64,000 nucleotides of DNA from Sphaerotilus montanus (lineage in GTDB: Bacteria > Pseudomonadota > Gammaproteobacteria > Burkholderiales > Burkholderiaceae_C): positions 2,170,001 through 2,234,000 of the forward strand of contig NZ_JACCFH010000001.1 of assembly GCF_013410775.1 (NCBI RefSeq), given 5' to 3'. The notes under the pieces are model-generated. The model saw only the letters and a program-made list of their open reading frames with translations, was not told where the DNA came from and searched no databases. Numbering within the stretch: position 1 is the stretch's first letter; every line of letters starts with the position of its first letter. A program made the translations under genes and the position numbers. This document shows, piece by piece, positions 6,198 through 22,766 of the stretch.

Positions 6198-7547
6198 TCA
6201 ACTGCCCATTGGCAACAGCAGTGCGAAGACCGTTTCAACCCCGGGGGTGCTGGAGACTTCAAGGTGTCCGCCGTGGTGGCGGATGATGCCGTGGGCCGCA
6301 GACAGGCCCAGCCCCGAACCATCACCTGCAGGCTTGGTGGTGAAGAACGGGTCGAAGATGTGTGGCAGGTCCTCGGGCAAGATGCCTTCACCCTGGTCGA
6401 TGACCTGGATGCGGACCACCTCGGGGTGGTTCTCCAGGCGGACCCGGTCCACCACCAGCTGCACCTCGCCGCTGCGTTCGCGCATGGCGTAGCCGGCATT
6501 CTTGACCAAGTTGAGGAGCACCTGCTCGATGCGCGCGGCGTCGATCAGTACCACCGCGTCCTGCCGCAGCTCGATCCGCAGCGGCACGTGGCGCGGCAAG
6601 CTCACCGCCAGCAGTGGCTCGCAGTGGTGCAGCCATGCCCCGAGCGCGACTGGGTGTGGCTGCAGGGGCGTTTCGCGCGCGAAGTGCAGCAGCTCCTTCA
6701 CCAGACCGGCCGCGCGGTTGCTGGCTTGGAGGATGCCGCCCAGGTTGCGGGCCTGGGCCGAACCGGCCTCGGCCTGCAGGGCGCACAGCTCGGCCAGCCC
6801 GATGATCGAGCCCAGCAGGTTGTTGAAGTCGTGCGCGACACCAGCAGCCAGGGTCGTGACGGCGCGCAGCTTGTCGTTCTGCCGCACGCGCTCTTCGAGT
6901 CGCCGCAGCGGGGTGATGTCGCGCCCGATGCACACATGGCTGAGCAACTGGCCATCCTGGTCGCGGATCGGAGAGATCGACCAGGTGGCGGGGAAACTGG
7001 TGCCATCGGTGCGGATCTGGTCGTTGGTCCAGTGGCCGGTGTGCTGTGCAGGCAACTCGGTCGGCCACAGCTCGGCCTGCCGGGGACGTGCCTGGTGCAG
7101 CCGCCAGCCGGTGGCGTGCTTGAAGGCGGGGTTCAGGTAGTCGAGCTGACCTTGCGCGTCGAACACCAGCACGAAGTCGTCGGTCTGCTCGAACATGACC
7201 AGCACCTTGCCGTGCTCTTCCTGCCAGCGTTTGCTGGCCTTGCGTGTCTCTTCCAGTTGCCGAGGCAGCATCACAGCCAGCATCAGCGGCGTCACGTCGC
7301 CCGACGCCAGTCGCCGGTAGGCCTGCGCTTGCAGGCTGCCTGCCGGCGCAGCGCTCCAGTCCTCCGCCAGCAGGGCCTGGGTGCGCTGGTGCAAGCCGAG
7401 CATGTCGTCGAGCGAGACGACATGTGGCAGCAGCGACTTGGCCAGGTCACTGGCAGCCAGCAGCACCGCCTCGCGCTGCAGGTCGTCGCTCGCACAGAGG
7501 TAGCGCTCGAACAGCGCCCGGTAGGTCGGTGCCAGCGATTCCAGCAT
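6198..7547 (-). CDS. Hybrid-input histidine kinase: RsbU-like N-terminus, PAS, HisKA, HATPase
   Basis: A 449-residue soluble sensor kinase. Residues 1-100 (YRALFERYLCASDD...DLAKSLLPHVVSLDDMLGLH) resemble the N-terminal RsbT-binding domain of RsbU phosphatases. A PAS domain covers about 110-215, the phosphoacceptor is His239 in AAGVAHDFNNLL, and the ATPase has N (NLVKNAGYAM) and G (GDGSGLGLSAAHGI) boxes. No receiver or membrane segment is seen. The start at 7547 shares one base with the RsbX stop (TGATG). By analogy with RsbU, freed RsbT would bind the N-terminus and switch the kinase on; this is inference. Its partner may be the lone receiver at 10345-10722. Confidence 0.88.
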   Translation of the reverse strand: MLESLAPTYRALFERYLCASDDLQREAVLLAASDLAKSLLPHVVSLDDMLGLHQRTQALLAEDWSAAPAGSLQAQAYRRLASGDVTPLMLAVMLPRQLEETRKASKRWQEEHGKVLVMFEQTDDFVLVFDAQGQLDYLNPAFKHATGWRLHQARPRQAELWPTELPAQHTGHWTNDQIRTDGTSFPATWSISPIRDQDGQLLSHVCIGRDITPLRRLEERVRQNDKLRAVTTLAAGVAHDFNNLLGSIIGLAELCALQAEAGSAQARNLGGILQASNRAAGLVKELLHFARETPLQPHPVALGAWLHHCEPLLAVSLPRHVPLRIELRQDAVVLIDAARIEQVLLNLVKNAGYAMRERSGEVQLVVDRVRLENHPEVVRIQVIDQGEGILPEDLPHIFDPFFTTKPAGDGSGLGLSAAHGIIRHHGGHLEVSSTPGVETVFALLLPMGS

Positions 7548-8194
7548 CACGGTGATCCGTTCAGATCCGGTGGGACGTGTGCGACCAGCACGGCGGCGTC
7601 GTCGCGCGTCGGATGTCCTTGCGCCATCAGGTGCCGACACAGCCGTCCGGGTTCGCGCACCCACTCGGGCAGCATCACGCCGACGGTCAGCGATTCGTCC
7701 AGGCCGTCGGTGAACAGCAGGAGCCAGTCGCCAGGCAGCAAGTCGAGGTCCAGTACCGTCACCCGGCGGCTGCCGTGGCCTGCGCTGAGCTGGCCATCAC
7801 CGACGATGCCGTAGGACGAGGGCAGTCGCTGCGTCCGACCTGTTCGCCAGCGCAAGGTCCTGGTGTTGCCTACACCAGCGTGGCGCAAGCGACCCGGTGT
7901 GATCCAGGTCAGCCCGATGGCCGCGCCCCGGGTGCCGGCCAGGGCGGTGTCCAGGTGCAGCAGCATCTGGTCTGGGTGGCCGGCCAGTTCGGGCTGATTC
8001 GCGGTCTGTTCCAGGATGTTCCGGGCGGCCTGGGCAGCGCGCGCCGCCTCGGGACCGTGGCCGAGTCCGTCGATGACCGCCAGCCAGTGCCCGACGGCGG
8101 CTGGCGGTGCGGTAGTTACCACGGCCACCACATCGCCGCACACCGTCTCGCCCGCGATCGGCTGGCTCAGGCAGTCCCAGTGCAGCGAGGTCAT
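7547..8194 (-). CDS. rsbX: RsbX-like PP2C/SpoIIE-type serine phosphatase
   Basis: A 215-residue single-domain PPM phosphatase with acidic metal-binding motifs GDVVAVV, AVIDGLGHGPEA, LFTDGLDES and TRDDAAVLVAH. RsbX resets stressosomes by dephosphorylating RsbR and RsbS. The start at 8194 overlaps the upstream RsbT-like stop by ATGA, and the stop overlaps the kinase start, so translation is probably coupled in both directions. There is no sensor or membrane part, as in Bacillus RsbX. Confidence 0.88.
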   Translation of the reverse strand: MTSLHWDCLSQPIAGETVCGDVVAVVTTAPPAAVGHWLAVIDGLGHGPEAARAAQAARNILEQTANQPELAGHPDQMLLHLDTALAGTRGAAIGLTWITPGRLRHAGVGNTRTLRWRTGRTQRLPSSYGIVGDGQLSAGHGSRRVTVLDLDLLPGDWLLLFTDGLDESLTVGVMLPEWVREPGRLCRHLMAQGHPTRDDAAVLVAHVPPDLNGSP

Positions 8195-8643
8195 GCGCCG
8201 AGCTTCGCCCACTTGCAGGCCCTCACCCAGGTGCCGACACCGGGTGTCGATCGGATCTCGAACTCGTCCATCAGGCGCTGCACCCCCGGCAGGCCGCAGC
8301 CCAGGCCGCCGCCGGTGCTGTAGCCCTCCTGCTGCGCCAGGGCCAGGTCGACGATGCCCGGCCCCTCGTCACCGGACTGCAGCTCGACCCCGCGGCGCAT
8401 CGATGGCGCTTGGGACGAGGACAGGGGCAGCAAGCGCAGCGTGATCGTGCCGCCGCGGGTGGTGTGCATCCACAGGTTGTTGGCCAGCTCCGACGCGGCG
8501 GTCGCGACATGGGCGGCCAGCAGCGGTGACAGGCCGTGGTCGAGGCAGAAATGGCGGGCAGCGGCCACCACATGCGGCACGTCGGTCTCGCGCTCCACCG
8601 TGCAGACCGCACTGTCTTGAAGATGACCTGGTGGTCGTGTCAT
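8191..8643 (-). CDS. Second RsbT-like serine kinase (anti-sigma-type HATPase)
   Basis: A 150-residue GHKL ATPase of the RsbT/RsbW family. The N-box is ASELANNLWMHT, the G1 box GDEGPGIVD and the lid GYSTGGGLGCGLPGVQRLMDEFEI, closest in pattern to RsbT. The start at 8643 (MTRPPGHLQ) lies four bases after the stop of the first rsbT; the longer frame would run through that gene. Two neighbouring RsbT paralogues are unusual. It may phosphorylate a different STAS protein, or one copy may engage the kinase and the other the RsbR/RsbS core; the sequence does not decide. Confidence 0.85.
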   Translation of the reverse strand: MTRPPGHLQDSAVCTVERETDVPHVVAAARHFCLDHGLSPLLAAHVATAASELANNLWMHTTRGGTITLRLLPLSSSQAPSMRRGVELQSGDEGPGIVDLALAQQEGYSTGGGLGCGLPGVQRLMDEFEIRSTPGVGTWVRACKWAKLGA

Positions 8644-8647
8644 GGGC

Positions 8648-9055
8648 TCAGTGGTGGCGACGGCGGCGCACGATCTGGATGCATACCACCGTGCCGCCCG
8701 TGCCGGACTGGATGTCGAAGTGGTCCACCAGCCGCTGGGTGCCCGGCAGGCCGGCACCCAGGCTTCCGCTGGTGGAAAAGCCGTCGCTCATGGCCTGTTG
8801 CAGGTCGTCGATGCCAGGTCCGCTGTCGCGCACCTCGGCCTGCAACCGGATCTGGGCGTGGTCGGAGAGGTCGCGCAGCTCGCACCGGCCACCCGAGGCG
8901 TACACCAGCGCATTGCGGCTCAGCTCGGACACCGCCGTGGCGAAGCGCGTCTGGTCCATCACGCCCAGTCCAATGTCCTTGGCCAGGGCGCGTGCGGCCA
9001 GCCGGGCACGCAGCAGATCGGCGCTGTTCGCCAGCTCAATCGTTTGCGAACTCAT
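8648..9055 (-). CDS. rsbT: RsbT serine/threonine kinase of the stressosome switch
   Basis: A 135-residue GHKL kinase with SELSRNALVYASGG (N-box), VRDSGPGIDD and DGFSTSGSLGAGLPGTQRLVDHF, very close to the Bacillus RsbT pattern. In known stressosomes RsbT phosphorylates RsbR and RsbS, leaves the complex and activates a downstream enzyme through an RsbU-type N-terminus. The start at 9055 is preferred because AGGAG lies 8 bases upstream on the coding strand; it overlaps the end of rsbS by 20 bases. Confidence 0.92.
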   Translation of the reverse strand: MSSQTIELANSADLLRARLAARALAKDIGLGVMDQTRFATAVSELSRNALVYASGGRCELRDLSDHAQIRLQAEVRDSGPGIDDLQQAMSDGFSTSGSLGAGLPGTQRLVDHFDIQSGTGGTVVCIQIVRRRRHH

Positions 9056-9458
9056 CGGGCGCTCCTGTGAGATGTCCAGTGAGGAGGTCACCGGTATCAG
9101 TCGCCGCGATCAATCGTTCCAGTCGGACGAGTGCACGTTCCAGGTTGAAGGCGGTCGGCACATCGACCAGGTTGCGGCCCATCTCCACCAGGGTCAGCGC
9201 CACCGCGGGCTGCACGCCGCAGACCACGACACACGCGCCCAGGATGCGCAGCATGCGGGCCGTGTCGTTGAGCACCCGCGCCATGTACGAATCGACCACG
9301 TCGAGCGCACTGACGTCGATCACGACGCCGCGGACCTGGTCCTGCGCCACCCGTTCTGTGAGGTCGCTCTGGAAACTGAGCACGCCTTCGTCATCCACGT
9401 CGGCGTGCAGGGGCACGATCAGGATGTGGGCGTTCAGTCGAAGCAGGGGTACGCGCAT
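9036..9458 (-). CDS. rsbS: RsbS-like STAS protein (stressosome scaffold)
   Basis: A 140-residue single STAS domain. The phosphorylatable serine is Ser57 in IDVSALDVVDSYMARVL, followed by VVVCGVQPAVALTLVEMG, which matches the RsbS pattern closely. RsbS forms the stressosome core with RsbR and holds RsbT until phosphorylated. It is four bases downstream of rsbR and overlaps rsbT. Confidence 0.92.
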   Translation of the reverse strand: MRVPLLRLNAHILIVPLHADVDDEGVLSFQSDLTERVAQDQVRGVVIDVSALDVVDSYMARVLNDTARMLRILGACVVVCGVQPAVALTLVEMGRNLVDVPTAFNLERALVRLERLIAATDTGDLLTGHLTGAPDEFAND

Positions 9459-9461
9459 CGG

Positions 9462-10325
9462 TCAGCCCCCCTTTTGCAGATGGCCGTTCAACTGCCGCCC
9501 GGTCATGCGCAGCGCCAGGACCACGCCCGCCTTGAGCGAGCCGCGGGTGGGCACTGCGGACAGGTCGATCCCGAGCTTGACCATGGTCAGCGCAGTGCTC
9601 GGGCTGATGCCGGTCAGGATCACCTGCGTGCCGAGCATCTCGGCAGCAGCCACGGTGCGCAGCAGGTGCCGCGCGACGCTGGTGTCCATCACGGGCACAC
9701 CGGTCACGTCGATCAGCGTGACCTCCGCCTCGGTGCGCCCGATGGCTTCGAGCAGCCGCTCGGCCACCTGCACCGCTCGCACGGAATCGACGATGCCCAC
9801 CAGCGGCAGCAGCAGGATCGAGTCCCACAGCGTGATCACCGGCGTGGACATGTCGAGCAGCGACTGCGCCTGGCTGCGGATCACGGATTCTCGCGTGGTG
9901 ACGAATTGCGATACCAGCGTCATCACGCAGCGGTCGAGCAGGGACTGCAGGCGCCACAGCGCTTCGGTCTGCAGGGTCGGGTCGCATGTACCGGGTGCCA
10001 TCAGCCGCGCCAGCAGGACGTCCTTGCACGACTGGACAAACCGGACGGAGGCTTCCGGTGCCTGGCCGCGCGCGGCGCGCACCTGGCTGGCCGAGCGCAG
10101 CACGCCGTCGAGTTGCTGCTGGGCGGCGGCGGCCTCCAGCTGGTCGGTCTGTCCGAGGGCGTGTCGCAGGGCGTCCAGCAATTCGTTCATCTCCGCATGC
10201 AGGCTGTCCATGTCGGCGCCAGCGAGCGCGGGACTGCCCAGCCGAGCCTTCCAGTCCGTCAGCAGTTCATCGTGGTGATCAGAGATCAGTTGCTGCAGCG
10301 CGGGCGCTACGGAAGGCGAGGGCAT
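9462..10325 (-). CDS. rsbR: RsbR-like stressosome sensor protein
   Basis: A 287-residue protein with a helical N-terminal sensor region (residues 1-155) and a C-terminal STAS domain (160-275). The STAS part reads IDVTGVPVMDTSVARHLL and ILTGISPSTALTMVKLGIDLS, as in RsbR. Thr215 and Thr247 sit about where RsbR phosphothreonines are expected. The N-terminus resembles the RsbRD_N-type helical domain rather than PAS; ligand unknown. The start at 10325 (MPSPSVAPAL) is chosen because an earlier Met at 10385 would overlap the upstream receiver gene by 41 bases. Confidence 0.88.
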   Translation of the reverse strand: MPSPSVAPALQQLISDHHDELLTDWKARLGSPALAGADMDSLHAEMNELLDALRHALGQTDQLEAAAAQQQLDGVLRSASQVRAARGQAPEASVRFVQSCKDVLLARLMAPGTCDPTLQTEALWRLQSLLDRCVMTLVSQFVTTRESVIRSQAQSLLDMSTPVITLWDSILLLPLVGIVDSVRAVQVAERLLEAIGRTEAEVTLIDVTGVPVMDTSVARHLLRTVAAAEMLGTQVILTGISPSTALTMVKLGIDLSAVPTRGSLKAGVVLALRMTGRQLNGHLQKGG

Positions 10326-10344
10326 GGGTGATCCATTCCGGAAT

Positions 10345-10722
10345 TCAGGGCGGTAGCACCGAACGGACTGCGGCTTGCAAGGCATCGCGACCGAAGGGTT
10401 TGGGGAGAGATTTTGCCACTCCGAGCAGATTTGCCGTGTCGAGATTGAACTGAGGGGACAGTGTCCGGCGCCCCCCGGAGATGGCGATCACGGGCAGACC
10501 AGGGTGGGACTGCTTCAATTGCACGATGAATTGCGCCCCATCCATCACCGGCATCAGCATGTCGGTGATCACGAGGTCCACACCTGAGGCGTGCTGGGCC
10601 AGGTGCAGCAGGCCGGCTGCGCCACCTGCCACGTCGATGACCCGGTGACCGTCGAGTTCAAGCAACTGGCGCACGGTATCGCGCAACAGCGCGTCGTCAT
10701 CGACTAGGAGGATGGTGTGCAT
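10345..10722 (-). CDS. Single-domain response regulator
   Basis: A 125-residue receiver. Acidic pocket DDD near residues 8-10, phosphoacceptor Asp in VITDMLMPVMDG, Thr/Ser position in VIAISGG and Lys in AKSLPKPFG. No output domain. It sits at the junction between the last receptor-like gene (14 bases away) and rsbR (19 bases away), so it is well placed to carry phosphate from CheA or from the operon's histidine kinase. Partner unproven. Confidence 0.9.
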   Translation of the reverse strand: MHTILLVDDDALLRDTVRQLLELDGHRVIDVAGGAAGLLHLAQHASGVDLVITDMLMPVMDGAQFIVQLKQSHPGLPVIAISGGRRTLSPQFNLDTANLLGVAKSLPKPFGRDALQAAVRSVLPP

Positions 10723-10735
10723 GTGTGTGACGCAG

Positions 10736-11908
10736 TCAGAACAGTTCGATGTGCTGTGAGACCGTCCGGTCTGCAGGACTGTCGGTGTGCGGATCAGGGG
10801 GGCGGTGTGCTTTCTCGATGGTCATGTACTGGTCCAGCAGTGCCCGTGCACGCGCATCGAGATCGGCCAGATCAGGCTGTCCGCTTTCAACCTGGGTGAG
10901 CAGGTGGCCCAGCAGCGCGTGCCGCTGCTCGAAAACAGGTGCCTGTCGGCCGATGATCTGCTTGAATACGTCGTGGTACTGTCCCGCATCAAGCAGGGAC
11001 AGAATGCCCTTGCTGAGTTCGGTGTTGTGCTCGGTGATGGCGGTCAGGAGCATGTTGTAGAACTGGCGCATGTCGAGGTAGCCTTCGTCGAACTTGCCGG
11101 TCAGTGTCAGCAGCCGTGCCACTTCGCGCTCGTTGTACTGCATGCGCTGGGCAAATTCGCCCGCCAGGCGCGCCTGAACGGTATCCACCAGATGGCGGAT
11201 GTTCTGTTCGATGCTCTTGGCGGAGTTGCTCGATTGCAGTGCCAGACGCCGGACCTCGCTGGCCAGCACCGAGAACGCGCGGCCAGCCTCGCCGGCATGG
11301 GCAGCGGCGATCGCCGCGTTGATCGACAGGATCTCCGTCTGGCGGGCCATGTCGCGGATGGTCTCGGAAATCGACGACAGTTGTCCCACCTCGGTGACCA
11401 GTCGTTCCAGATAGGCGCGCTCTTGTGCGATCTGCTCGGGGAGTGCTTGAACGAAGTTGGAAAACTCGGTCGCGATCGAGCCATTGTGTTCGATCATCGA
11501 CTGCATCTCGATGCTCTGCCGGTTGGCCGTCTGCAGGTAGTCGAGCAACCGCCCGGCCAGCTGGTGCAGGTGCGTGACACGATCGATGGTGTTCAGCGAA
11601 GAGGTTTCCGACAGGCTGACTGCACGGTCCAGTTGCTGCAGCATCTGCTGGTCCAGTGCTTCCATGGTCTGCCGCACGCCGGTATCAGCCTCGGTGTGCG
11701 TCGTTGCCTGGCGCTGCAGTCGGTAGCGCAATGTCCTCCACCAGAACAGCACGCCGGACCCTGTCAGCAGCAGCCCGCCCAGGTCGGATGCCAGTGTCCA
11801 GCCGGTTCGCAGCAGATCGGACGTCACCAATCCTGTTCCGCATAGCCCGACCAGTATCAGCGCCTGTTCCAGGGTCGTGAATTGTTTCAGGATGACGGTA
11901 GTTCTCAT
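10736..11908 (-). CDS. Membrane-anchored methyl-accepting chemotaxis-like receptor, IELF tail
   Basis: About 390 residues. Two closely spaced N-terminal membrane helices with almost no periplasmic loop, then a coiled coil and a signalling tip RDMARQTEILSINAAIAAA followed by EAGRAFSVLASEVRRLA. No HAMP or ligand-binding domain. The tip has AAIAAAHAG where most receptors have ASIEAARAG, so it is divergent. The protein ends VSQHIELF; the neighbouring receptor ends in the same IELF. ATG at 11908 is used; a GTG at 11926 in frame is an alternative. Confidence 0.8.
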   Translation of the reverse strand: MRTTVILKQFTTLEQALILVGLCGTGLVTSDLLRTGWTLASDLGGLLLTGSGVLFWWRTLRYRLQRQATTHTEADTGVRQTMEALDQQMLQQLDRAVSLSETSSLNTIDRVTHLHQLAGRLLDYLQTANRQSIEMQSMIEHNGSIATEFSNFVQALPEQIAQERAYLERLVTEVGQLSSISETIRDMARQTEILSINAAIAAAHAGEAGRAFSVLASEVRRLALQSSNSAKSIEQNIRHLVDTVQARLAGEFAQRMQYNEREVARLLTLTGKFDEGYLDMRQFYNMLLTAITEHNTELSKGILSLLDAGQYHDVFKQIIGRQAPVFEQRHALLGHLLTQVESGQPDLADLDARARALLDQYMTIEKAHRPPDPHTDSPADRTVSQHIELF

Positions 11909-11943
11909 GAGCCGGTTCTGTGTCACTGTGTGGCGAGCCTCGG

Positions 11944-13158
11944 CTAGAAAAGCTCGATGGGCGGCCCCATCGCGTTGTTTTCAGTCGGCATGGCGACATT
12001 CTTTTCGTTCGTCTGCACCTGCTGGTGGGGACTCCATTGACTTTGCATCACGTAGTTTTCTGTCCAGCGGGTCACCAGCTCTTCCAGTTGAACGGGAGGT
12101 GGCGGTGCCTGTCCGTCGATCAGTTGATAGAGCTGGGCAAAATGGTCCGACAGGCTGCTCAAGGCACTGTTCACCTGTTCCAGCATCTGGCGGTTGATGT
12201 CCTGGAACTGCATGTCGCCCAGCGTGTCGATGACGTCCCGGGTCATGAGTTGGATGCCTGAGTCCATGGTGCCCGACAGCTCGCTCAGGTAGGGCACTGT
12301 CTCGGACAGCGTGCGGCTCATCAGCTCGATCTGGTGGGCGATCTCGCCGAGCTGTTGGGTGGTGTCCCCTGCGCGTGTCGATTCGGCGGCCGCCATTTCC
12401 CGGTCGATCTGCTCGGCGGCTTGCAAGATGCCCCGTGTGATCTGCAGAGCGGCTTCTTCCGTCTGTGCGGAGAGGTTGCGGACCTCGGCGGCGACCACTT
12501 TGAAGCCGGCGCCTTCCGGCCCCGCCCGAGCGGCTTCGATGGACGCATTGAGCGACAGCAGGTGGGTCTGGCGCGAGATGTTCGAGATCAGCTCGGCCAG
12601 CGGCATCAGTTGGCGGACTTGCTTCGCCACGGCCCGTATCCGATAGCGGTTTTCGAGGTCGGCCGACTCGGCTGCCTTCTGGTGTTCGGACAGGGTATTC
12701 ACCGCTTTTGTGTGGCGTTCCACACCTGATAGCGAATCGGCAGACAGGGTGTGCGAGTGCCCCACTGCCTGCTCGATGCGCTCATGCAGTTGCACCACGT
12801 TGCCATGCACCCGTTGCATGCGCTCCATCATCGACAGCACCGCTTGCTCGGAGGTCTTGATGGTCGTCATGACTTGCGCCTTCAGGATGCCAAGCGCCTG
12901 GTGCAGCGTACCGATGTCCTGCGCCACGACTTGGTGTGCAGTGCCCTGTCCCGCGGTCTGCAGAGGCTTCTGGAACCGACCGAGCACGAGGCCGATCAGT
13001 AGTCCGCCGAGCATTTCCATGACACCGGTCCATGTCACCCGTTCGGGCCAGAGCTGTTGCAGCAGCAAGGCCAGTGCACTGACAAGCAGCACGCCCAGGT
13101 CACGCCATGTCAAACGACGCCAGGGCGTGAAGGTTGATGGCGTCAGCATGATCTTCAT
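11944..13158 (-). CDS. Membrane-anchored methyl-accepting chemotaxis-like receptor, IELF tail
   Basis: A 404-residue receptor with two N-terminal membrane helices (about 18-33 and 45-60), no periplasmic sensor and no HAMP. The signalling tip is [20 protein letters not shown] followed by [18 protein letters not shown]. The C-terminal extension after the coiled coil is polar ([14 protein letters not shown]) and ends GPPIELF. Start ATG at 13158 follows the CheY stop by seven bases; the longer frame overlaps that gene. With no sensor domain it probably reads membrane state or another protein; that is inference. Confidence 0.85.
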
Positions 13159-13165
13159 GCTGGTT

Positions 13166-13531
13166 TCATGCCCCCGGAATGACTTGTCTGATGACCTTGA
13201 CCAGATCGGCACCACCGACGGGCTTGACCAGCCAGCCGGTGGCGCCATTTTTCTTGGCTTCATCACGCTTGCCTTGCTGGCTTTCTGTCGTCAGCGCCAG
13301 GATGGGTGTGAAGCGCAGCAGCTTGCGGGCTTCGCGGATCAGCTCGATGCCGTCCATCTTGGGCATGTTGATGTCCGTGATGATGAGGTCGGGCTTGAGG
13401 CCGGCCTTTAGCTTGCCCAGTGCTGCCTGGCCGTCGCTGGCCGTGTCAACCTTGAACCCGCTGATCTCCAGCGTGCCTTTCAGGCTCATCAGCATGGTGG
13501 CGGAATCATCGACCAGAAAAACGTGTTTCAT
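13166..13531 (-). CDS. CheY-like response regulator
   Basis: A 121-residue receiver with DD at residues 8-9, phospho-Asp in [19 protein letters not shown] for the switch Thr, and the conserved Lys in WLVKPVGG. It is CheY-sized with no output domain. Encoded between the small STAS-like gene and the first membrane receptor, it is the second CheY of this operon. Two CheYs for one CheA often mean one output protein and one phosphate sink; which is which cannot be told. Confidence 0.92.
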
Positions 13532-13800: not shown

Positions 13801-16085
13801 CAGACAAGCTCCTTCGGGTTGAGGATCATCAGCACGCTGCCGTCGCCCATCAGCGCCGTGCCAGCAAACCCGGTGATGCCGGTCAGCACGCCTTCGAGCG
13901 GCTTGAGGATGATGTCGGAGGTGCCGTGGAAGTTGTCCACCAGCAAGCCGACGTTTTCGCTGCCGAGCCGCACCACCAGCACGGCCAGTTCGCCGTCCTC
14001 GTTCGGCCGGGGCGCGCAGTCCAGGCCCAGCAGCTCGTTCAGCGCCCGCAGCGGCACGATGCGCCCGCGCAGCACGGTGGTCTGAGAACGCTTGAAGTGG
14101 TGGATGTCCTCGGCTGGCACCCGCACCGTCTCGACGATCAGGTCCATCGGCACGCCGAACCGGCGCTCGCCTGCCTCGATCATCATCACGTTGGTGACCG
14201 CCATCGACAGCGGCAGCGTCAACCGCACCGTGGTGCCCTGGCCGCGCACGCTGTCGAGTTCGACCTGGCCGTTGATGCGCTCGACTGCGTTGCGCACCAC
14301 GTCCATGCCGACGCCGCGCCCGGACAGGTCCGAGATCGCGTCGGAGGTGGAGAACCCTGGCAGGAACACCAGTTGCACTGCTTCGGTCTCGGTCAGGCTG
14401 GAGGCCCGGTCCGAGGGGATCAGGCCGCGTTCGACTGCCTTGAGACGCACGCGGTCGGTGTCGATGCCGGTGCCGTCGTCGCTGATGGTGAGCATCACGC
14501 GGTCGCCTTCCTGACGCGCCGCGACGCGCAGTGTGCCCTGGGCGGGTTTGCCGGCGGCCAGGCGAACCTCCGGCGTTTCCAGCCCATGGTCCAGGCTGTT
14601 GCGCAGGATGTGGATCAGCGGATCCGCCAGCGACTCGATGACGTTCTTGTCCGCTTCGGTGTCCTCGCCCTCGATGACCAGGCTGACGTCCTTGCCGAGC
14701 TTCTTGCTCAAGTCGCGCACGAGCCGACCGAAGCGCTGGAAGATGATGCCGACCGGCAGCATGCGCACCTGCATGATGGCGTGCTGCATGTCCTCGGCGA
14801 TGCGGTTGATCACCGAATACTGGGTCTTGATCTCGCGGGCCAGTTCCCGCTGTCCGAACAGCGACTCAGCCCGCGTGGCCAGGTAGGGCAGGGCGTTCTT
14901 GGCCACCACCATCTCGCCGATCAGCTCCATGAGTCGGTCGATCTTGTCCTGCGACACCTTGAGCACCTTCTGGCCGCGCTCGGCGCCGCCCTCCTCGGCA
15001 GTCGGGTGGGTCGCGTTGCGGCGGGGGGGCTGCGGCATCGCCTGCGGGTGGCCGGGCGGGTGGGCGTGACCGTGTCCATCGGGGTGGTACTGCTGTGCCC
15101 ATTGCGCCAGCGGCACCGGGCCCGGTGCCAGCCCCTGCAACGCCGTGCGGGCCTGACTGACGAGCGCATGATCGTCCCGGCAGGCCAGCAGGTTCGCCAG
15201 CGTCTGCCGCACGGCAGCCACCGTGCCAGCCGAAACCCCGGTGCGGCCCAGCAAGCGGCGCTGGTCGTCCCACACCTGCTGGAGACGGGTATTCAGCAGG
15301 TCCACGTGGGGAGCCGGGGTGGGTACAGCGACGGCCACCGGGGGCGCCAGCACGCGCCAGTAGTCCACCTGTTCTGGCACATAGCGGAAGTGGGCCTCGA
15401 CCTCGGCCAGAGGTGCTTCGCTCACCAGGCGAATGTCCAGGTTGCAGGCGTAGCAGTCGAACTGATCGCCCTCGGGCCACGGCGCGTTTGGCCGCACGTC
15501 CAGGTGCAGCAGCCCCGGCGCCGTGCGGGCCAGGTGCCAGGGATCTTCGCCCTTGAAGAAGCAGGTCTCTTCGGGCACGTAGCGCACGAGCACCCGCCCG
15601 GGCTGGCGCCACTCGGCGGGCAGCGGGTTCGACCAGTCGGGCGCGGCCAGGGCCGCCTCGCTCCGTCCTGCCACAGGGGCTACAACCGGCTCGCCAATCT
15701 GGTCCCGCAGCGCGGCGGCCAGCAGGCGCGCACGGTCCTGCGTGCCTTCAGGCAGGGTACCTTCGGCCTCGATCACGTCGATCAGCGAGGCGGTGTAGTC
15801 CATCGCCTCCAGCAGCGCGTCGGCGATCGATTCGTTGTACGACAGGCGGCCGTTGCGGATGCGGTCCAGCACGTCTTCCCCGGCATGGACCACCAGCTCC
15901 AGCGCCTTGAACTCGAACAGTCCGCAGTTGCCCTTGAGGGTGTGGACTTGCCGGAACAGGTCGTTGAGCAGGTCGGGGTCCTGTGGGGCCTTCTCCACGT
16001 CCAGCAGTCGCTGGCCGACACGTTCCAGGCACTCGCGCGACTCCAGGATGAACTGGTCGAGCAGTTCCGTCGAATTCAGACTCAT
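13800..16085 (-). CDS. cheA: Chemotaxis histidine kinase CheA
   Basis: 761 residues. N-terminal HPt domain with His48 in VHTLKGNCG; a middle region of about 150-340 (two VRYVPE-type repeats, probably the response-regulator docking part); a His/Pro-rich linker near 345-365; dimerisation helices; an HATPase with HILRNSLDHGLE, DDGTGID and GRGVGMDVV; and a C-terminal CheW-like domain. CheA phosphorylates CheY and CheB when stimulated by receptors. It overlaps cheY by four bases and the small STAS gene by one. Confidence 0.97.
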   Translation of the reverse strand: MSLNSTELLDQFILESRECLERVGQRLLDVEKAPQDPDLLNDLFRQVHTLKGNCGLFEFKALELVVHAGEDVLDRIRNGRLSYNESIADALLEAMDYTASLIDVIEAEGTLPEGTQDRARLLAAALRDQIGEPVVAPVAGRSEAALAAPDWSNPLPAEWRQPGRVLVRYVPEETCFFKGEDPWHLARTAPGLLHLDVRPNAPWPEGDQFDCYACNLDIRLVSEAPLAEVEAHFRYVPEQVDYWRVLAPPVAVAVPTPAPHVDLLNTRLQQVWDDQRRLLGRTGVSAGTVAAVRQTLANLLACRDDHALVSQARTALQGLAPGPVPLAQWAQQYHPDGHGHAHPPGHPQAMPQPPRRNATHPTAEEGGAERGQKVLKVSQDKIDRLMELIGEMVVAKNALPYLATRAESLFGQRELAREIKTQYSVINRIAEDMQHAIMQVRMLPVGIIFQRFGRLVRDLSKKLGKDVSLVIEGEDTEADKNVIESLADPLIHILRNSLDHGLETPEVRLAAGKPAQGTLRVAARQEGDRVMLTISDDGTGIDTDRVRLKAVERGLIPSDRASSLTETEAVQLVFLPGFSTSDAISDLSGRGVGMDVVRNAVERINGQVELDSVRGQGTTVRLTLPLSMAVTNVMMIEAGERRFGVPMDLIVETVRVPAEDIHHFKRSQTTVLRGRIVPLRALNELLGLDCAPRPNEDGELAVLVVRLGSENVGLLVDNFHGTSDIILKPLEGVLTGITGFAGTALMGDGSVLMILNPKELV

Positions 16086-16513
16086 GCCCGCACTCCTTGC
16101 AACGACTGGGCATCGGCTGCCCGCCGGGCCGCCTCGGCATCCCCGAGCATCAGGGCGGCGGTCAGTACCAGCCCCTGTGGTCGGGCGGGCTTGATCAGGT
16201 AGCCGTTGGCCCCGGCTTCCTCCGCGACCAGGGCGTCCTGGGGCTGCGCTTCGGTGGAGACCATCAGCACGGGCGCCTGGGCCCCATGAGGCAGGCGCCG
16301 CAGCTCCCGCACGAAGGTGTAGCCGTCCATCTTGGGCATGTTGATGTCCACCACGTACAGATCGAATGGCTGTTCCGGCGGCTGGTTCATCACCCGCTCC
16401 AGTGCTTCGAGGCCATTGACGGCCTCCTCGACGTGCCAGCCGGCGTCGCCGAGCATCTTGCGGTGGTACATGCGCACAGTGGCGGCGTCATCAACCACGA
16501 GGATGTTCTTCAT
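16082..16513 (-). CDS. cheY: CheY response regulator
   Basis: 143 residues. Receiver with DDAATVRMYHRKML at the N-terminus, phospho-Asp in [23 protein letters not shown] for the switch residue and YLIKPARP with the conserved Lys. It is a little longer than classic CheY because of a 15-residue tail. Stop and start overlap its neighbours cheA and cheR by four bases each (ATGA), the tightest part of the operon. Confidence 0.95.
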   Translation of the reverse strand: MKNILVVDDAATVRMYHRKMLGDAGWHVEEAVNGLEALERVMNQPPEQPFDLYVVDINMPKMDGYTFVRELRRLPHGAQAPVLMVSTEAQPQDALVAEEAGANGYLIKPARPQGLVLTAALMLGDAEAARRAADAQSLQGVRA

Positions 16514-17373
16514 GAGCGGTTCCCCGACATGGGTTTCTGGTAGACCATTGCGTCCGGGAAACGGCGCACGGTGTAGAGCGACGAGATGCGGCTCATCGAT
16601 TCCGAGTGGCCCAGGCAGACAAAGCCGCCCGGCGTGAGGGCGTCGTACATGGCCTCTGCCGCCAGGCGGCGCGACAGGTCGTCGAAATAGATCAGCAGGT
16701 TGCGACAGAAGATGACATCGATGTCGCGGAACCGGCGCGTGTCATTGGCGTCGCTGAGGTTGACGCGGCTGAAGTCCACCGCCGCGACCAGGTCGCGCGA
16801 GATCTCGAACTCGTTGTCCGAGCGGCGGTGGAAGTATTTGTCCAGGTAGGGTTTGGGCAACTGGCCGACCGAGCGCGCCGAGTACACCCCGCGCTGCGCC
16901 GCACTCAGCACGGTCGTGTCGATGTCCGACGACAGGATCTCCACCTCGTACTGGTCGATCAGCGGCCAGCGTTCCAGCAGGTAGATCGCGATCGAGTACG
17001 GCTCCTCGCCGGTGGACGACGGGATCGACCAGATCCGGATGCGGCTGCCCGGGCGCTTGTGGCGCACGACCTCGGCGAGCATGTCCCTGACCAGACAGTC
17101 GAACTGGTAGAACTCGCGGAAGAAGTAGGTCTCGTTGACCGTCATCGCGTTGACCAGTTGCTGCAGCTCGGCCCCGTCGGCCTCGAAACGCAATGCGATG
17201 AAGTACGATCGGAAGTTGTCCGCGCGGGTGGCCTCGATGCGGTCGATCAGCCGCTTGTCCACGAAATAGCGCTTGTTGTCCTCGAAATAGATGCCGGTCT
17301 TGCGGTAGAAGAATTCCCTGAATTTGAGGAAGTCCGAGTCCGTGATGACGGGTTGGGTGACGGCGGTTCTCAT
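16510..17373 (-). CDS. cheR: Chemoreceptor glutamate methyltransferase CheR
   Basis: 287 residues. N-terminal helical domain (FREFFYRKTGIYFEDNKRY), then the SAM-binding domain with SSTGEEPYSIAIYLLE, YEVEILSSDID, the FCRNLLIYF strand and a final LGHSES. CheR methylates receptor glutamates using SAM, opposing CheB. The start at 17373 lies four bases after the stop of the HEAT-repeat gene. No TPR extension is present. Confidence 0.96.
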   Translation of the reverse strand: MRTAVTQPVITDSDFLKFREFFYRKTGIYFEDNKRYFVDKRLIDRIEATRADNFRSYFIALRFEADGAELQQLVNAMTVNETYFFREFYQFDCLVRDMLAEVVRHKRPGSRIRIWSIPSSTGEEPYSIAIYLLERWPLIDQYEVEILSSDIDTTVLSAAQRGVYSARSVGQLPKPYLDKYFHRRSDNEFEISRDLVAAVDFSRVNLSDANDTRRFRDIDVIFCRNLLIYFDDLSRRLAAEAMYDALTPGGFVCLGHSESMSRISSLYTVRRFPDAMVYQKPMSGNRS

Positions 17374-17377: not shown

Positions 17378-18004
17378 TCAGGGTGACTCGATGCGGGCGA
17401 TGACCATGTCAGCGGTGAAGCCGATGAATGGATCCTGGGCAAAACGCTGTCGGGTGGCGCGCAGGGCCGCTACATGCTCGGGCTGGCCCACTTCGGCCAG
17501 CACATCAATCGCGGCGGCCACCACGTTCACCTCCTGCTCGTTGGCCAGCACCATCAGCAGCCACTGAGGCACCTGCTCGTGGCGGAGTTCGCCCAGCAGG
17601 TTGACCGTGAAAATCCGGACATCCACATCGGTGTCACCGAGCAGCGCAGTGATGCGGGGTGCGACCGCGCGCGGCATGCCGGCCAGCGCCTCGATCGCCC
17701 GGTTGCGCAACTGCGCGTCGTCGCGGCGCAGCAGTGGCAGCAGCGCGCTCACGCTGTCCGGCGTGGCCATGGTGCCCAGCGAGGTGAACAGCGCTTCGCG
17801 CACGCTACTGTCCTGCTCCTGCAACAACTGTTCGCCTAGCGCTCTGACCGTGTCGGGGTGGGCGGCCAAGTCGCGCGCCGCCCAGCGCCGCAGTTCGATT
17901 TCCGGGCTGCGCAACTGGGCGATCAGGCCCTGGGCATCGCGGGGCAGTGCTCGGTCAATGACCGGGCGCAGCGGGTCGAGTTCGGAGTTCTTGCGCAGTC
18001 CCAT
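17378..18004 (-). CDS. HEAT-repeat protein in the chemotaxis operon
   Basis: A 208-residue alpha-solenoid. At least four HEAT-type helix pairs are visible, e.g. IAQLRSPEIELRRWAARDLA, LLPLLRRDDAQLRNRAIEAL and ITALLGDTDVDVRIFTVNLL. No catalytic motif. It lies between cheB (10 bases) and cheR (4 bases). HEAT proteins are protein-protein scaffolds, so it may tether or tune the adaptation enzymes; this is inference. Confidence 0.85.
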   Translation of the reverse strand: MGLRKNSELDPLRPVIDRALPRDAQGLIAQLRSPEIELRRWAARDLAAHPDTVRALGEQLLQEQDSSVREALFTSLGTMATPDSVSALLPLLRRDDAQLRNRAIEALAGMPRAVAPRITALLGDTDVDVRIFTVNLLGELRHEQVPQWLLMVLANEQEVNVVAAAIDVLAEVGQPEHVAALRATRQRFAQDPFIGFTADMVIARIESP

Positions 18005-18014
18005 CAGATGGCCT

Positions 18015-19103
18015 TCATGCGGTTTTCTGGATCCAGTGACGCAGTTGGCGGGTCACGTCACCACAGGGCAGCACCACGCTGGCACCCCCACGCTCGATCA
18101 GTTCTGACGGCATGCCGAACACGACCGCGGTCTCTTCTGACTCTGCAATCGTCCTTCCGCCGGCAGACTTGAGTTCGGCCATCGCGCGGGCGCCGTCGTA
18201 GCCCATGCCGGTCAGCAGCACGCCGACCAGTTTCTGCGCCGGCATCACCCGCATCGCGCTTTCCATGAGCACGTCCACCGACGGGTGCCAGAGGTGGCCG
18301 GGCGTTTCCGGGTGCGGCTGGACCATCAGCCGTCCAAGGCGCTCGACCACGACCATGTCGGTGTTGCCACGGCCGATGTAGATGTGGCCCGGCTCGATGG
18401 GCATCTGCGTCGAGGCTTCGCAGACCTGCAGGGCGCACAGCCGATCCATGCGCTGCGCGAACGCCTGGGTGAAGTTGCCGGGCATGTGCTGGGCCAGCAG
18501 CACTGGCCAGGGAAAGTTCGCTGGCAACTGCGGCAGGATGTCCTCCAGCGTCCGCGGCCCGCCCGTGGAAACGCCGATCACGACCAGCCCTGGCAAGGCG
18601 GCAGCGCTGGTGCCGAGGCGGGTGCCCGCGTGCGAGGGGGCGCGCACGGGCGCCGGGTTCGGTGTACTGACCGGGCGTGTTGCCAGGGGCGGGCGCGTCG
18701 AGGGCCTGCGCATGCGTGACTGCGCCGCCGTGCGCACTTTCTGAAGCAACTGGAGCGCGATCTGGTCGATGCTCAGCGAGATCGTGCCGCCCGGTTTGGC
18801 GATGAAGTCCACCGCACCAAGCGCCAGCGCCTCAATGGTGGCCTGGGCACCCTGCTCGGTCAGCGACGACACCATCACGACCGGCGTTGGTCGCGCCTGC
18901 ATCATCAGTGACAGCGCCGTCAGCCCGTCCATCTCGGGCATGTTGATGTCGAGCGTGACCACGTCGGGCTCCCACTCGATCAGCCGCTCGATCCCTTCCC
19001 GGCCATTGCGGGCTGTGGTGACCTCGTGGCCTTCCTGGGTCAGCACGGTGCTCAGCAGGCGCCGCATCAGCGCCGAATCGTCTACCACCAGAACCTTGGA
19101 CAT
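18015..19103 (-). CDS. cheB: Chemotaxis protein-glutamate methylesterase CheB
   Basis: 362 residues. N-terminal receiver with DDSALMRRLL, phospho-Asp in VVTLDINMPEMDGL and Lys in DFIAKPGG; a linker; a C-terminal methylesterase with the Ser in GVSTGGPRTLE, the His in LAQHMPGNFTQ and the Asp in GMGYDGARAM. It demethylates and deamidates receptors and is activated by CheA. The start at 19103 begins MSKVLVVDDS; upstream Met codons would add a 23-residue tail not seen in CheB. Confidence 0.96.
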   Translation of the reverse strand: MSKVLVVDDSALMRRLLSTVLTQEGHEVTTARNGREGIERLIEWEPDVVTLDINMPEMDGLTALSLMMQARPTPVVMVSSLTEQGAQATIEALALGAVDFIAKPGGTISLSIDQIALQLLQKVRTAAQSRMRRPSTRPPLATRPVSTPNPAPVRAPSHAGTRLGTSAAALPGLVVIGVSTGGPRTLEDILPQLPANFPWPVLLAQHMPGNFTQAFAQRMDRLCALQVCEASTQMPIEPGHIYIGRGNTDMVVVERLGRLMVQPHPETPGHLWHPSVDVLMESAMRVMPAQKLVGVLLTGMGYDGARAMAELKSAGGRTIAESEETAVVFGMPSELIERGGASVVLPCGDVTRQLRHWIQKTA

Positions 19104-19140
19104 GTCGCTGTGCTTCCTTCCGTGGGGGAGCGCGTGCGGA

Positions 19141-20826
19141 TCAGGCTGCCCGTGCCAGTCGGCGCGGTTCATCCGGGTGCTGAGGTGACTGCGGGTGCGA
19201 GGGTTCGGTGCCTGGCTCGGCCATGGTGTTCATGGCCTGGATCTCGCGGGCGGCCAGCAACTGGTTCGGGTCGATCAGCATCACCAGCCGCCGCTCGCCG
19301 TCGAGCTTGGCCACACGCCCGATGAGGCTCATCTGCTCGTCGGAAAGTCGCGGTGCGGGGTCGATGTGCTGGCGCGGAATGCGCAGCACCTCGGCCACCG
19401 AATCGACGATGAAGCCGGTGCGCAGCCCGTTGAGCGTGTAGACCATGATGCGCTGGCGGTCATTGCGCTCGATGGCGGGCATGCCCAGGCGCGTGCGCTG
19501 GTCGATCACCGGCAGCACGGTGCCGCGCAGGTTGATCACGCCCTCGACGAAGCGGGGCGTCTTGGGCACCCGCGTCAGCGTATCCGGCAATCGGACGATT
19601 TCCTGCACGCTCATGATCGGCACACCGAACTCCTCGGCGCCGAGCCGGAAGATCACCACCTGGGCGTCGTCATCGTCGGGTTGTGTGCTGGACGCGGCGG
19701 CGTTGGAAGAGATCGAGGCGTTCATGTCGGTGTCGTGCGTGAATGCGTGGTGAGCCGGGTCGGTCCTGGACATCTGCAGGGCCTCGCTGATGGCGGGCAT
19801 GCCGAGCAGCTTGTCGGTGGCGATGATCGACACCAGGCGCCGGCCGTTGTCGAGCCTGCAGATCGAGGAGAACTCCTGCAGCTGCTCGTCGCGCGCCAGC
19901 AGGCCGGGCATCGCGTCGGCCTGGCTGCGCGGTACGCTCAGCACCTCCTTCACCGAGTCCGTCACCAGCCCGATCTGGCCGCCGCCGGGCAGGGCGACGA
20001 CGACGATGCGGTGGTGCTCGGTCAACTCGGCGGGCGCCAGATCGAACAGCGTGCGCAGGCTCACCAGCGGCAGCAGACGCTGGCGCAGCGAGATCAGCCC
20101 GAGCACGTGCGCCGGCGTGTTGGGCACTGCGGTGATCGTGCTGGGTACCTGGACGATTTCCTGCACATCGGCGATGTCGATGGCGTATTCCTGGCCGCAG
20201 ACGGTGAAGCTCACCAGGCGCAGTTCGTCCGAAGCGTGTTCGCTGTCCGCGTCAGCCGACTTCGATGGCTCGGCCGATTGGTGCGAGCCACCGACCTGGC
20301 GGGTGCTGATCTGCGTGAAATGCTGTTGCACCAGCCGTGCGAAGTCCAGCACCAGCAGCAACTGGCGCTGGCCATCGGGCCCGGTCCGGTTGATCACGCC
20401 CGTGAGGTAGTCGGCCTGCACGACCGACTGGATCGACCGCACGGGCTCGATGTCGCCCGCGTCGATGCTGATCACGCTGGAGACCCGGTCCACGACGAAG
20501 CCCAGCGACTGGCCGAGGTTGATCACCAGCGCGCGGCTGGCATCGTCGTTGACGCGCTCTGCGGTGTTGAACAGCCGGCGCAGGTTGATGATGGGCAGTA
20601 CCCGGCCGCGCAGGTTCGATAGCCCGTCCAGCGCGGCAGGGGTCAGCGGCATCCGGGCCACGTCGGGCACCCGGATGATTTCCTGAACCGGTGCCATCGG
20701 CACGGCGAACATCTCGTTGGCCACGGAGAACGTGACGAACTGGAGGCCCTGCGCCGTGGAGGGCTCCTGGGCAGCGTGGGGGTCGGCGCCGGGCTCGCGA
20801 GCCGTCTCGAATTCGGTGACAGGCAC
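19141..20826 (-). CDS. Triple-CheW scaffold protein
   Basis: A 561-residue protein built of three CheW domains in tandem, about residues 28-165, 202-340 and 385-530. Each starts with a FSVANEMFAVPM-, FTVCGQEYAIDI- or FRLGAEEFGVPI-type strand, then VQEII/VQEIV, and ends with a LRGRVLPIINLR-, LRQRLLPLVSLR- or LRGTVLPVIDQR-type strand. CheW couples receptors to CheA; three linked copies could cross-link an array. No separate single-domain CheW gene is present in the cluster. It is 37 bases upstream of cheB and 11 bases downstream of the receptor gene. Confidence 0.93.
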   Translation of the reverse strand: MPVTEFETAREPGADPHAAQEPSTAQGLQFVTFSVANEMFAVPMAPVQEIIRVPDVARMPLTPAALDGLSNLRGRVLPIINLRRLFNTAERVNDDASRALVINLGQSLGFVVDRVSSVISIDAGDIEPVRSIQSVVQADYLTGVINRTGPDGQRQLLLVLDFARLVQQHFTQISTRQVGGSHQSAEPSKSADADSEHASDELRLVSFTVCGQEYAIDIADVQEIVQVPSTITAVPNTPAHVLGLISLRQRLLPLVSLRTLFDLAPAELTEHHRIVVVALPGGGQIGLVTDSVKEVLSVPRSQADAMPGLLARDEQLQEFSSICRLDNGRRLVSIIATDKLLGMPAISEALQMSRTDPAHHAFTHDTDMNASISSNAAASSTQPDDDDAQVVIFRLGAEEFGVPIMSVQEIVRLPDTLTRVPKTPRFVEGVINLRGTVLPVIDQRTRLGMPAIERNDRQRIMVYTLNGLRTGFIVDSVAEVLRIPRQHIDPAPRLSDEQMSLIGRVAKLDGERRLVMLIDPNQLLAAREIQAMNTMAEPGTEPSHPQSPQHPDEPRRLARAA

Positions 20827-20837
20827 GGAGCGCCTCC

Positions 20838-22766
20838 TCAGTTGCTCTGCAGTTCGTCAGCCAGCGAGGCGATTTCCTCGATGGCGGCCGACAGCTCCTC
20901 TGCGCCCTGGGACTGCTGCTTTGCGGCGGTGGCGGCTTGTTCGGCGGCACGCTCGGCTTCCTGGGCGGCCGAGGCGACCTGGTCAACGGCGACCTTCACC
21001 TGCGCCAGTGCGGTGACGATCTCCTGGGCGGCGAGGGCGGCTTCCGCATTGCCTTTCTCGACTTCGATCACGTCCCCGTCCATCAGCAGCAGGTTGCTGG
21101 TGATCGAGCGGGCCTTGTCCACTTCGCTGAGGGCCGAGGCCGTGATCTCGGTCAGGTCGCGGCCCACCATGCCGATCTGGTCCTGGATGCTCTTGACCAG
21201 ATCTTTGATCCGGTCGGCGTTTTCGGCCGAATCGTGGGCGAGGTTGCGGATGTCGGTGGCGACGACGACGAAGCCCTTGCCGTACTCGCCTGCGCGGGCC
21301 GCTTCGATCGAGCCATTGACGGCGAGCATGTTGGTCTGGATCGACACCTGCGTGATCGCGTCCACGATCTTGTCGATCTTGCGGCTCACCAGTTCCAGCT
21401 CCTTGATCTGTTGCAGGCTGGTGCGGGTGGAGCTGACGCTGGAGGTGATGCTGCCGACCAGGCTGTCGATCAGCCGCCGGTTTTCGCCCATCAGGCCCTT
21501 GATGGCGCCGGCGCGTTCACGGGCGTTGCGGGCACGTTCTTCGGCGACCTGCGCGCCTTTTTCGATCTGGACGACCGCGGCGGCCGACTCGGTGGTGGCG
21601 GACGCCTGGGCCTGCGCACCCTTTCGGATCTGCTCCAGCGCCACCATGATCTGGGCGGCCGAGCGGTTGATTTCCTGGACCGCACTGGAGAGTTCCTCGG
21701 CGGCGCTGGCCACTTCCTCGGCGCTCTTGCCGATGTCCGACGAGTTCTTCAGGTCGTCGGCGATCTCCGACAGGTTCTGGGCGGTCTGCTCGCATTCGGC
21801 CAGCGCGGCGCTCTGCTCCTCGGCAGTCTTGGCGGCTTCCTCGCAGGCCGAGGACTGCTCGGTGGACGCCGAGGCGATCTGCTCCGCCCCCTTGAGCGCT
21901 TGCTGGGCGGCGACGCTGGACTGCTGGGCGGCGGACGCGATCTCGGCCGAACCGGTGACGATCTCGGTCGCATCGACGCGGATCTGCTCCAGTTGCTTCA
22001 GGATGGTGCCGCTCTTCTCTACCTCGGTCTGAATGGCGTCGGCCGACTGGTTGATGCCGCTGGCGATGGTCTTGACCTCGCCCTGGATCTGACCCACCAG
22101 GTCCTGGATCTGCTTGGCGCTCTTCTCGCTGGTTTCGGCCAGCGTGCGCACCTCGTCCGCGACGACGGCGAAGCCCTTGCCGTGCTGGCCGGCGCGGGCG
22201 GCTTCGATGGCGGCATTCAGCGCGAGCAGGTTGGTCTGGTCTGCGATGCGCGCCACGGCCTTGACGATGTCGCCGATGTTGGCCGCCTGGCGCTCCAGCT
22301 CGGCCACCATCTTGACGGACTCGGCCTGGCGGCGCGCGGCCAGGGTGACATTGGTGACCGTGCTGCGCACTTCGCCGTCGATGCGGCCGGTCATGGTCTG
22401 CATGCTCTGGGCCTTGGACTGGGCCAGACTGACCGCATTGAGCTGTCGCACGATCGAGCTGGAGACCTGGGTGATGGCGGCCAGCGACTCCTGCGCGGCG
22501 CCTGAGGCTTCTTCGGCTCCGCTGGCAATCAGGTCAGAGGCGCGCTTGAGTTCTTCTGACGCGGAGGCGGCCTCGTTGATGCCGGCCGACAGTTGGCTGG
22601 TCGCGCTGGCCACCCGCTCGGCGGCCTGCTGTTGTTTGGCCATCGTGCGTGCGCGTTTGCGGTTCGCTTCGGCGTCGCGCGTCATGCTGCGGGTCAATCC
22701 CTTGGCGACCACAGGCGTGGCGGCAGCGGGTTGTGCGGATTCTCGTGATTTGGTGACCAGCGCCAT
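20838..22766 (-). CDS. Soluble chemoreceptor with two signalling hairpins
   Basis: 642 residues, no membrane segment, no HAMP, no recognisable sensor. It contains two complete signalling tips: one near residues 175-205 ([19 protein letters not shown]) and one near 475-505 ([18 protein letters not shown]). Their IEAARAG motifs are exactly 300 residues apart, and each is flanked by long alanine-rich coiled coil, so the protein looks like a duplicated cytoplasmic receptor. It is the first gene of the operon, followed by the triple-CheW gene. Confidence 0.93.

Follow-up and report, generated by a model that had tools for sequence, protein, structure and literature searches.

Chemosensory clusters of the F9 class bear a signature that pairs a double-signalling receptor devoid of a sensor domain with a triple CheW (PMC9321776), and cluster I of Vibrio cholerae, a member of this class, is described in the sections of the literature drawn on here as a purely cytoplasmic two-layer sandwich array with a 24H receptor and an elusive function (PMC7534058; PMC9321776); no cheZ appears among the genes listed for it in the corresponding section of a further account (PMC11940527). 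Receptors resembling McpA/CttP and VC1394, encoded with F7 or F9 genes, are in turn described there as combining a 24H signalling domain with a transmembrane region (PMC7534058); the McpA-like ones of F7 are reported to be dispensable for array formation, and a cheZ gene is reported to belong to F6 clusters, though not to early F7 ones. On the stress-response side, RsbRSTX modules are described with a downstream signalling output, some of these outputs carrying RsbU_N (PMC9237108), a docking domain for RsbT that is also known from histidine kinases encoded beside stressosome genes (PMC12143880). Here we analyze an operon in a 64,000-nucleotide stretch of Sphaerotilus montanus (NZ_JACCFH010000001.1, positions 2,170,001-2,234,000; hereafter the window, in whose positions coordinates are given unless labelled otherwise, the genome itself being G000), in which an F9-class system and a predicted stressosome are encoded in one row of genes. 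We judge it fairly probable that this conserved super-operon couples the F9-class array to the stressosome, with both inputs determining how far a small pool of receivers is phosphorylated.

The operon consists of 18 open frames (g1 to g18), all on the minus strand and transcribed from 22766 to 6198, with intergenic gaps of -20 to +37 bases once start codons are adjusted. The frame map thus bears out a first-pass annotation of this DNA, which had read an 18-gene, one-strand operon with gaps of at most 37 bases; its placement of a chemosensory set ahead of a stressosome module likewise holds, g1-g10 being of the F9 class by their domains and followed by a receptor, a receiver and the rsb module. 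According to Pfam, the first half runs tandem MCP, triple CheW, REC-CheB, HEAT, CheR, REC, CheA, a 78-residue protein without a match, REC and MCP, and the second MCP, REC, RsbRD_N-STAS, STAS, HATPase, HATPase, SpoIIE/PP2C and PAS-HisKA-HATPase. The check proposed with that annotation, a search for the same gene order in relatives, leaves the linkage unrefuted: the order recurs in 16 genomes from two classes of Proteobacteria, a recurrence that is more than chance. Since distant bacteria keep the same gene row, the array and the stressosome probably work together.

These 16 genomes comprise three of the genus Sphaerotilus (G000, G002 and G008), two of Rubrivivax (L045, seen from the middle of cheA on, where its contig starts, and L048), one of a further genus in the family (G573) and ten of a Methylobacterium-like genus. 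Among the 13 genomes of the Sphaerotilus genus (own included), one of which is the joined S. mobilis DSM 10617 (G008; locus L032), an F9-type CheA occurs in eight and this RsbS in four, with the halves joined in three of the four; in G003 they lie on different contigs, the g11 receptor and the g12 receiver staying beside the rsb genes. CheA matches of at least 64% identity, some covering part of the protein, are present in 11 of the 60 genomes searched, own included. Among named genomes, the 80 best-matching RsbS loci include three with the joined order, from Rubrivivax gelatinosus IM 151, S. mobilis and a Rubrivivax metagenome-assembled genome (MAG). In the family of the window RsbS is found in 34 of 299 genomes, and the ten examined include two joined operons, in G000 and G573, and a split one, in G003. 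The other class is represented by G087, in whose genus (99 genomes) this RsbS type occurs in 11 and this CheA type in ten; all ten are joined, with CheA and RsbS on one contig, 3.5-4.2 kb apart (Fisher's test, 7e-13, not corrected for shared descent), and all ten match the window in gene order from CheW through the kinase, the tandem receptor lying at the edge of eight. Across the class of G087, RsbS is present in 12 of 385 genomes; an examination of all 12, some of them on short contigs, shows the join in G087 alone. We call the genus Methylobacterium-like because a locus of Methylobacterium bullatum (LMG 24788; L055) is 96% identical to G087 over 6.6 kb. This locus was considered as a joined copy and rejected: it retains the rsb half, the receptor gene with the CheZ-like end discussed below and only the end of cheA, from locus position 1512 onward, its positions 1-1512 being unrelated to L170. 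The break is either a rearrangement or an assembly fault, and L055 is left out of the 16.

The first ten genes belong to the F9 class because they encode the tandem-signalling receptor and the triple CheW. The DosM-like receptor g1 (20838-22766, minus strand, as for every gene of the operon below) has two tandem MCP signalling hairpins (Pfam MCPsignal, two stretches, 1e-61), beyond which Pfam finds no sensor domain and just one match, below cut-off; g2 (19141-20826) has three concatenated CheW domains (Pfam CheW, three stretches, 2e-99). They are followed by g3, CheB with a receiver and a methylesterase domain (18015-19103; Pfam 2e-57 and 4.8e-25), the HEAT-repeat protein g4 (17378-18004; HEAT_2, 1.1e-22), g5, CheR (16510-17373; 1.8e-53), the stand-alone receiver g6 (16082-16513; Response_reg, 3.7e-26), g7, CheA with Hpt, dimerisation, HATPase and CheW domains in Pfam (13800-16085), the 78-residue putative mini-STAS protein g8 (13564-13800), a second, CheY-like stand-alone receiver, g9 (13166-13531; Response_reg, 3.2e-26), and the receptor g10. 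We take the HEAT and small-STAS genes to be part of V. cholerae cluster I as well.

The first-pass annotation had further described the set as lacking CheD and CheZ. As to separate genes this is accurate, in that Pfam finds no cheD or cheZ among the 18, and the one CheZ match of the genome above the curated cut-off sits outside the operon, at C1:2614257; as to domains it is not, since g10 and g11 each appear to end in a CheZ-like domain, a putative CheY-P phosphatase. The receptor g10 (11944-13158) joins a hydrophobic N-terminus and an MCP hairpin (Pfam MCPsignal, 3.6e-22) to a C-terminal domain that ends in IELF and matches NCBIfam Phos_CheZ at 0.01, below cut-off; g11 (10736-11926) has an MCP hairpin (MCPsignal, 5.1e-19) and the same kind of C-terminal domain and IELF end. 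The motif Q[FYG]xDxxxQ is present in the C-terminal part of all 31 relatives that similarity brought together, whether their loci are che-only, rsb-only or joined (a count that leaves out L212_9046, a wrong-frame reading overlapping a real gene), and in a 17-row alignment its Q, D and Q are invariant, as are the terminal E and F (QxxDxxxQ and an IELF-type end); more distant members end in ITFF, IQLF or IILF. When a profile of the receptor C-termini is compared with that of CheZ, this motif aligns to the CheZ catalytic motif, whose residues we take to have the catalytic roles (score 31.7, P 2.1e-4; best of 60 shuffles 19.0, reversed 15.2), the DxxxQ of g10 and g11 thus falling in the same helix of a homologous domain. 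Most telling in our judgement is the apparent overlap with canonical CheZ: of eight fetched short frames matched by the receptor profile, six (194-250 residues, L240-L245) are also matched by the canonical CheZ profile, and the two that are not (L238, L239) are short stand-alone proteins (182-191 residues) beside a receiver, with the same motif and an IELF or VELF end. At E 0.01, the receptor profile flags none of 13 other MCP-like frames in the examined regions. Against the curated CheZ family the best score is 15.4 of 350 bits (NCBIfam, E 0.01), for g10, with none for g11, and Pfam CheZ matches two relatives only, at 0.13 and 0.0051, both below cut-off. Recognition by structure was tried and set aside: the g11 model (predicted local distance difference test, pLDDT, 73; predicted template modelling score, pTM, 0.39) returned chemoreceptors at E <0.001, long helices being uninformative. 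The IELF-type end could alternatively, by analogy, be a tether for CheR/CheB, such as the pentapeptide NWETF; it does not fit the printed tether pattern [HFYW]xx[HFYW].

This type of receptor is not confined to the operon. Two Pseudomonadaceae genomes (L232, L234) encode MCP-CheZ fusions next to CheY and CheA, as does a different che cluster of S. montanus (L236). In all, the S. montanus genome has two further CheZ-like domains (G000:C1:366926-367213 and C1:3538473-3538736; L236, L237), one on an MCP beside another cheA cluster and one in a 307-residue frame beside CheY. The receptor profile matches 84 of 397 genomes of a phylum sample at E 1e-4, some of these matches being canonical CheZ. G002, G008, L045 and the Methylobacterium-like loci have, in place of a g10/g11 pair, a single receptor-CheZ gene directly after the CheY-like receiver. 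Within the 80 RsbS loci the profile finds five frames, each separated from the downstream rsbR only by a receiver or STAS gene. One is in a Syntrophobacteraceae MAG (L047:109-6392), whose contig starts at the receptor-CheZ gene and continues with a STAS gene, RsbR-S-T, a second kinase, RsbX and an RsbU_N-PAS-SpoIIE-HATPase output. Beside other stressosomes, the MCP genes seen in Massilia (L081, L098) and Oxalobacteraceae (L066, cut by its contig) have no CheZ-like end.

The second half opens with g11 and the stand-alone receiver g12 (10345-10722; Response_reg, 5.4e-20). Next come g13, RsbR with RsbRD_N and STAS domains (9462-10325; Pfam; solved RsbR chain, 1.3e-29), g14, RsbS (9036-9458; Pfam STAS, 7.6e-13; solved RsbS chain, 8.7e-26), the RsbT-like switch kinase g15 (8648-9055; HATPase_c_2, 1.8e-11), a second switch-kinase-like protein, g16 (8191-8643; HATPase_c_2, 1.4e-11), and the RsbX-like PP2C/SpoIIE phosphatase g17 (7547-8194; SpoIIE, 3.3e-13). 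Aligned to the solved stressosome chains, g14 has the phospho-acceptor serine and g13 both threonines in place, at the positions that we take to be the phosphorylated ones. With RsbR, RsbS, kinase and phosphatase in stressosome order, g13-g17 encode, by sequence, a complete stressosome core; RsbR-RsbS-RsbT-kinase-RsbX-output is the order in many of the 80 stressosome loci scanned, and many of them have a second switch-kinase match after RsbT.

The row is closed by the histidine kinase g18 (6198-7547; PAS, HisKA and HATPase by Pfam), the N-terminal helical stretch of which resembles RsbU_N (0.011; 16.3 of 25.5 bits, below cut-off). RsbU_N precedes PAS or kinase domains in six of nine output proteins (window, L033, L047, L048, L055 and L170), the one from L047 being a PAS-SpoIIE-HATPase protein and not a histidine kinase. 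Further, a profile of 17 kinase N-termini matches that of four Bacillus-type RsbU N-termini with a score of 31.3 (P 4.5e-5; best of 100 column shuffles 23.1); the two of these four RsbU proteins that were checked have RsbU_N and SpoIIE far above cut-off. Sequence matches in the PDB were also sought for the g18 N-terminus and rejected, the two that were returned being weak and neither of them RsbU.

The linkage, order, parts and domains being read from the sequence, we infer the phosphotransfer and the final target as follows. Under stress, RsbT would leave the stressosome and bind the RsbU_N-like domain of g18, altering its kinase activity, and g18 would then act on g12, the receiver that accompanies the rsb genes. 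Signals of the array would change the phosphorylation of g6 and g9 by CheA. The receptor-phosphatases g10 and g11 would drain phosphate, inside the array or beside it where their hairpin tips are intact, so that stand-alone receivers served by separate kinases would share receptor-borne phosphatases, with receiver targets encoded outside the operon. That both signals meet at one output is plausible. In S. mobilis a canonical cheZ (L032:16828-17454; Pfam 1.6e-55) overlaps the end of the operon's g18, as would be expected if receiver dephosphorylation were a shared control point.

Several observations weigh against such a coupling. With regard to the domains, the RsbU_N and CheZ matches in the window all fall below curated cut-offs; RsbU_N is not reported in three of the nine outputs (L031, L032, L045) even with E allowed up to 1; for CheZ, the profile comparison yields a probability of only 46%, and the best of five upstream windows reaches 26.6, uncomfortably near 31.7; and the g11 fold search gave chemoreceptors and other helical proteins, with no CheZ among the matches listed. 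The hairpin tip of g11 reads AAIAAAH or AAIAAAQ in G000 and G003, as against AAIEAAR in G002, G008, L045 and L048, and with this altered tip g11 may there work outside the array while g10 stays inside. With regard to linkage, of the 34 genomes with an RsbS-like gene in the 397-genome phylum sample just two have it, G000 (own) and G087; che occurs without this rsb in G001, G006, G010, G023, G033 and G036, and, of eight more Methylobacterium-like genomes with a CheA 45-48% identical, all five that were fetched are F9 without rsb; conversely, rsb occurs without che in G003 and in G480, the eleventh RsbS genome of the G087 genus, which has neither a receptor-CheZ gene nor che in its 20 kb examined. 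The modules are thus separable. To these we add a terminator-like hairpin that sits between the two halves, to which we return below.

One alternative is that the operon is a horizontally moving signalling island, its two systems co-expressed and co-inherited with no exchange of signals. A sporadic distribution (10 of 99 and two of 34 genomes) speaks for this, as do the frequent horizontal movements reported for F9 clusters in the parts of that survey drawn on here (PMC9321776) and a discordance between trees: the CheA of G000 groups with those of the unlinked G001, G006 and G010 (100/96) and its Rsb proteins with those of the split G003 (98/94), which losses could also explain. In favour of coupling, 12 joined or partly joined loci (G573 and four Methylobacterium-like loci not included) fall in the RsbS+RsbT tree of 22 loci with G003, G480 and the Syntrophobacteraceae MAG on one branch (98/97), apart from seven other stressosomes. 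On the CheA tree, built from 25 loci, three changes of the joined label are required. The history fits either a single old joining that was followed by losses and one move, or joining on more than one occasion. An island of mere co-inheritance is less easily reconciled with an order kept despite protein identities of just 28-58% between L170 and the window, with receptor-CheZ and receiver genes that are placed between the halves and, in G003 though not in G480, remain attached to rsb, or with an output kinase bearing an RsbU_N-like domain; hence we consider it unlikely, if the foremost of the alternatives to coupling through the receivers.

A second alternative, which we hold to be more doubtful still, has the stressosome act on the array itself, with RsbT or the second kinase binding or phosphorylating g8 or another part of the array, or the reverse. 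The operon does have two switch kinases, and g8, which in the F9 clusters seen separates CheA from a CheY, has a predicted STAS-like fold: its AlphaFold model (pLDDT 85.6) has anti-sigma antagonists (RsbV, SpoIIAA, RsbS) as its best Foldseek matches (E 1.7e-3 to 1e-2, none <0.001; probability 1.00), with other folds (Mglu, ClpP) also among the matches listed. As a STAS domain by sequence profile g8 was rejected, its score of 13.8 being not significant and inside the spread of 60 shuffles (up to 22.1 in one of them); a fragment of CheA, L229, had been wrongly included in the alignment behind this score, and the alignment used for the fold was made without it. The presence of g8 also in F9 clusters without rsb genes tells against this alternative, and what we take to be the usual phospho-serine position is occupied in the aligned rows by Ala, Thr, Ser or Gly, so phosphorylation there is not general. 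Finally, that the halves are two adjoining transcription units, the second starting at g11, is very improbable: for it speak a hairpin of seven pairs with a T-rich tail (11972-11955, minus strand) exactly at the g10/g11 junction and the separate standing of g11-g18 in G003, but the gap there is of 17 bases, consensus scans give no sigma-70-like promoter (which means little at this G+C content), terminator-like sites are at chance level (six over both strands, including two on that of the operon, against 7.6 expected), and the g10/g11 pair does not exist in G002, G008, L045 and the Methylobacterium-like loci.

As for the surroundings of the operon, two further genes follow downstream on the same strand (2461-6142), encoding a geranylgeranyl-reductase-like FAD protein, for which no match was found in seven related operon loci, and a GGDEF-EAL protein; a divergent gene for a patatin-Omp85 protein (22931-25231) has a common upstream region with g1. 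Elsewhere in the window, an IS66 transposase, a heavy-metal P-type ATPase and a G+C content down to 0.49 (47735-49462 and 56000-64000) suggest acquired DNA.

Returning to the coupling of array and stressosome through the receivers, its conserved operon tie to a predicted complete stressosome gives the F9 array a direct, testable partner, and makes it unusually clear how the function of these arrays could be tested. If confirmed, the CheZ-like domain in 24H/McpA-like receptors would supply a missing phosphatase and would fit the dispensability for array formation that is reported of the McpA-like F7 receptors. A broader proposition may be entertained tentatively, with doubt prevailing: F9 arrays could be array-scale front ends of a partner-switch stress circuit, with the stressosome in the same operon in one branch, and the 24H/McpA-like receptors of F9 and F7 could be CheZ-type phosphatases anchored by an MCP hairpin, whose placement in the array would be the meeting point of both signals. 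In open-access full text we found no paper on an F9-stressosome operon, the supplementary F9 gene-order tables of PMC9321776 lying outside the scope of that search.

Set against the known systems, the locus shares with V. cholerae cluster I the tandem-signalling receptor, triple CheW, CheB, CheR, two CheY, CheA and the membrane 24H receptor; it differs in the stressosome module that follows and in small receptors seen here to carry a CheZ-like domain. By their description only, g10/g11-type genes may be likened to McpA/CttP-like receptors, though these and VC1394 are described as receptors with no CheZ domain mentioned in the sections drawn on. With the RsbRSTX modules followed by a histidine kinase, as far as that account was drawn on (PMC9237108), it has in common the RsbR-RsbS-RsbT-RsbX order and the downstream signalling protein, whereas here a receptor-CheZ, a receiver and a whole F9 cluster precede the module and a second switch kinase stands between RsbT and RsbX. 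The precedent that comes closest in pairing chemosensory genes with a partner switch, CrsR-CrsA, at one locus is Che1 of Shewanella, which is tied to the stress regulator RpoS (PMC9855816); in the parts of that account drawn on, however, it is of the F7 and not the F9 class, no RsbR/RsbS/RsbT stressosome is described and the switch acts on a sigma factor.

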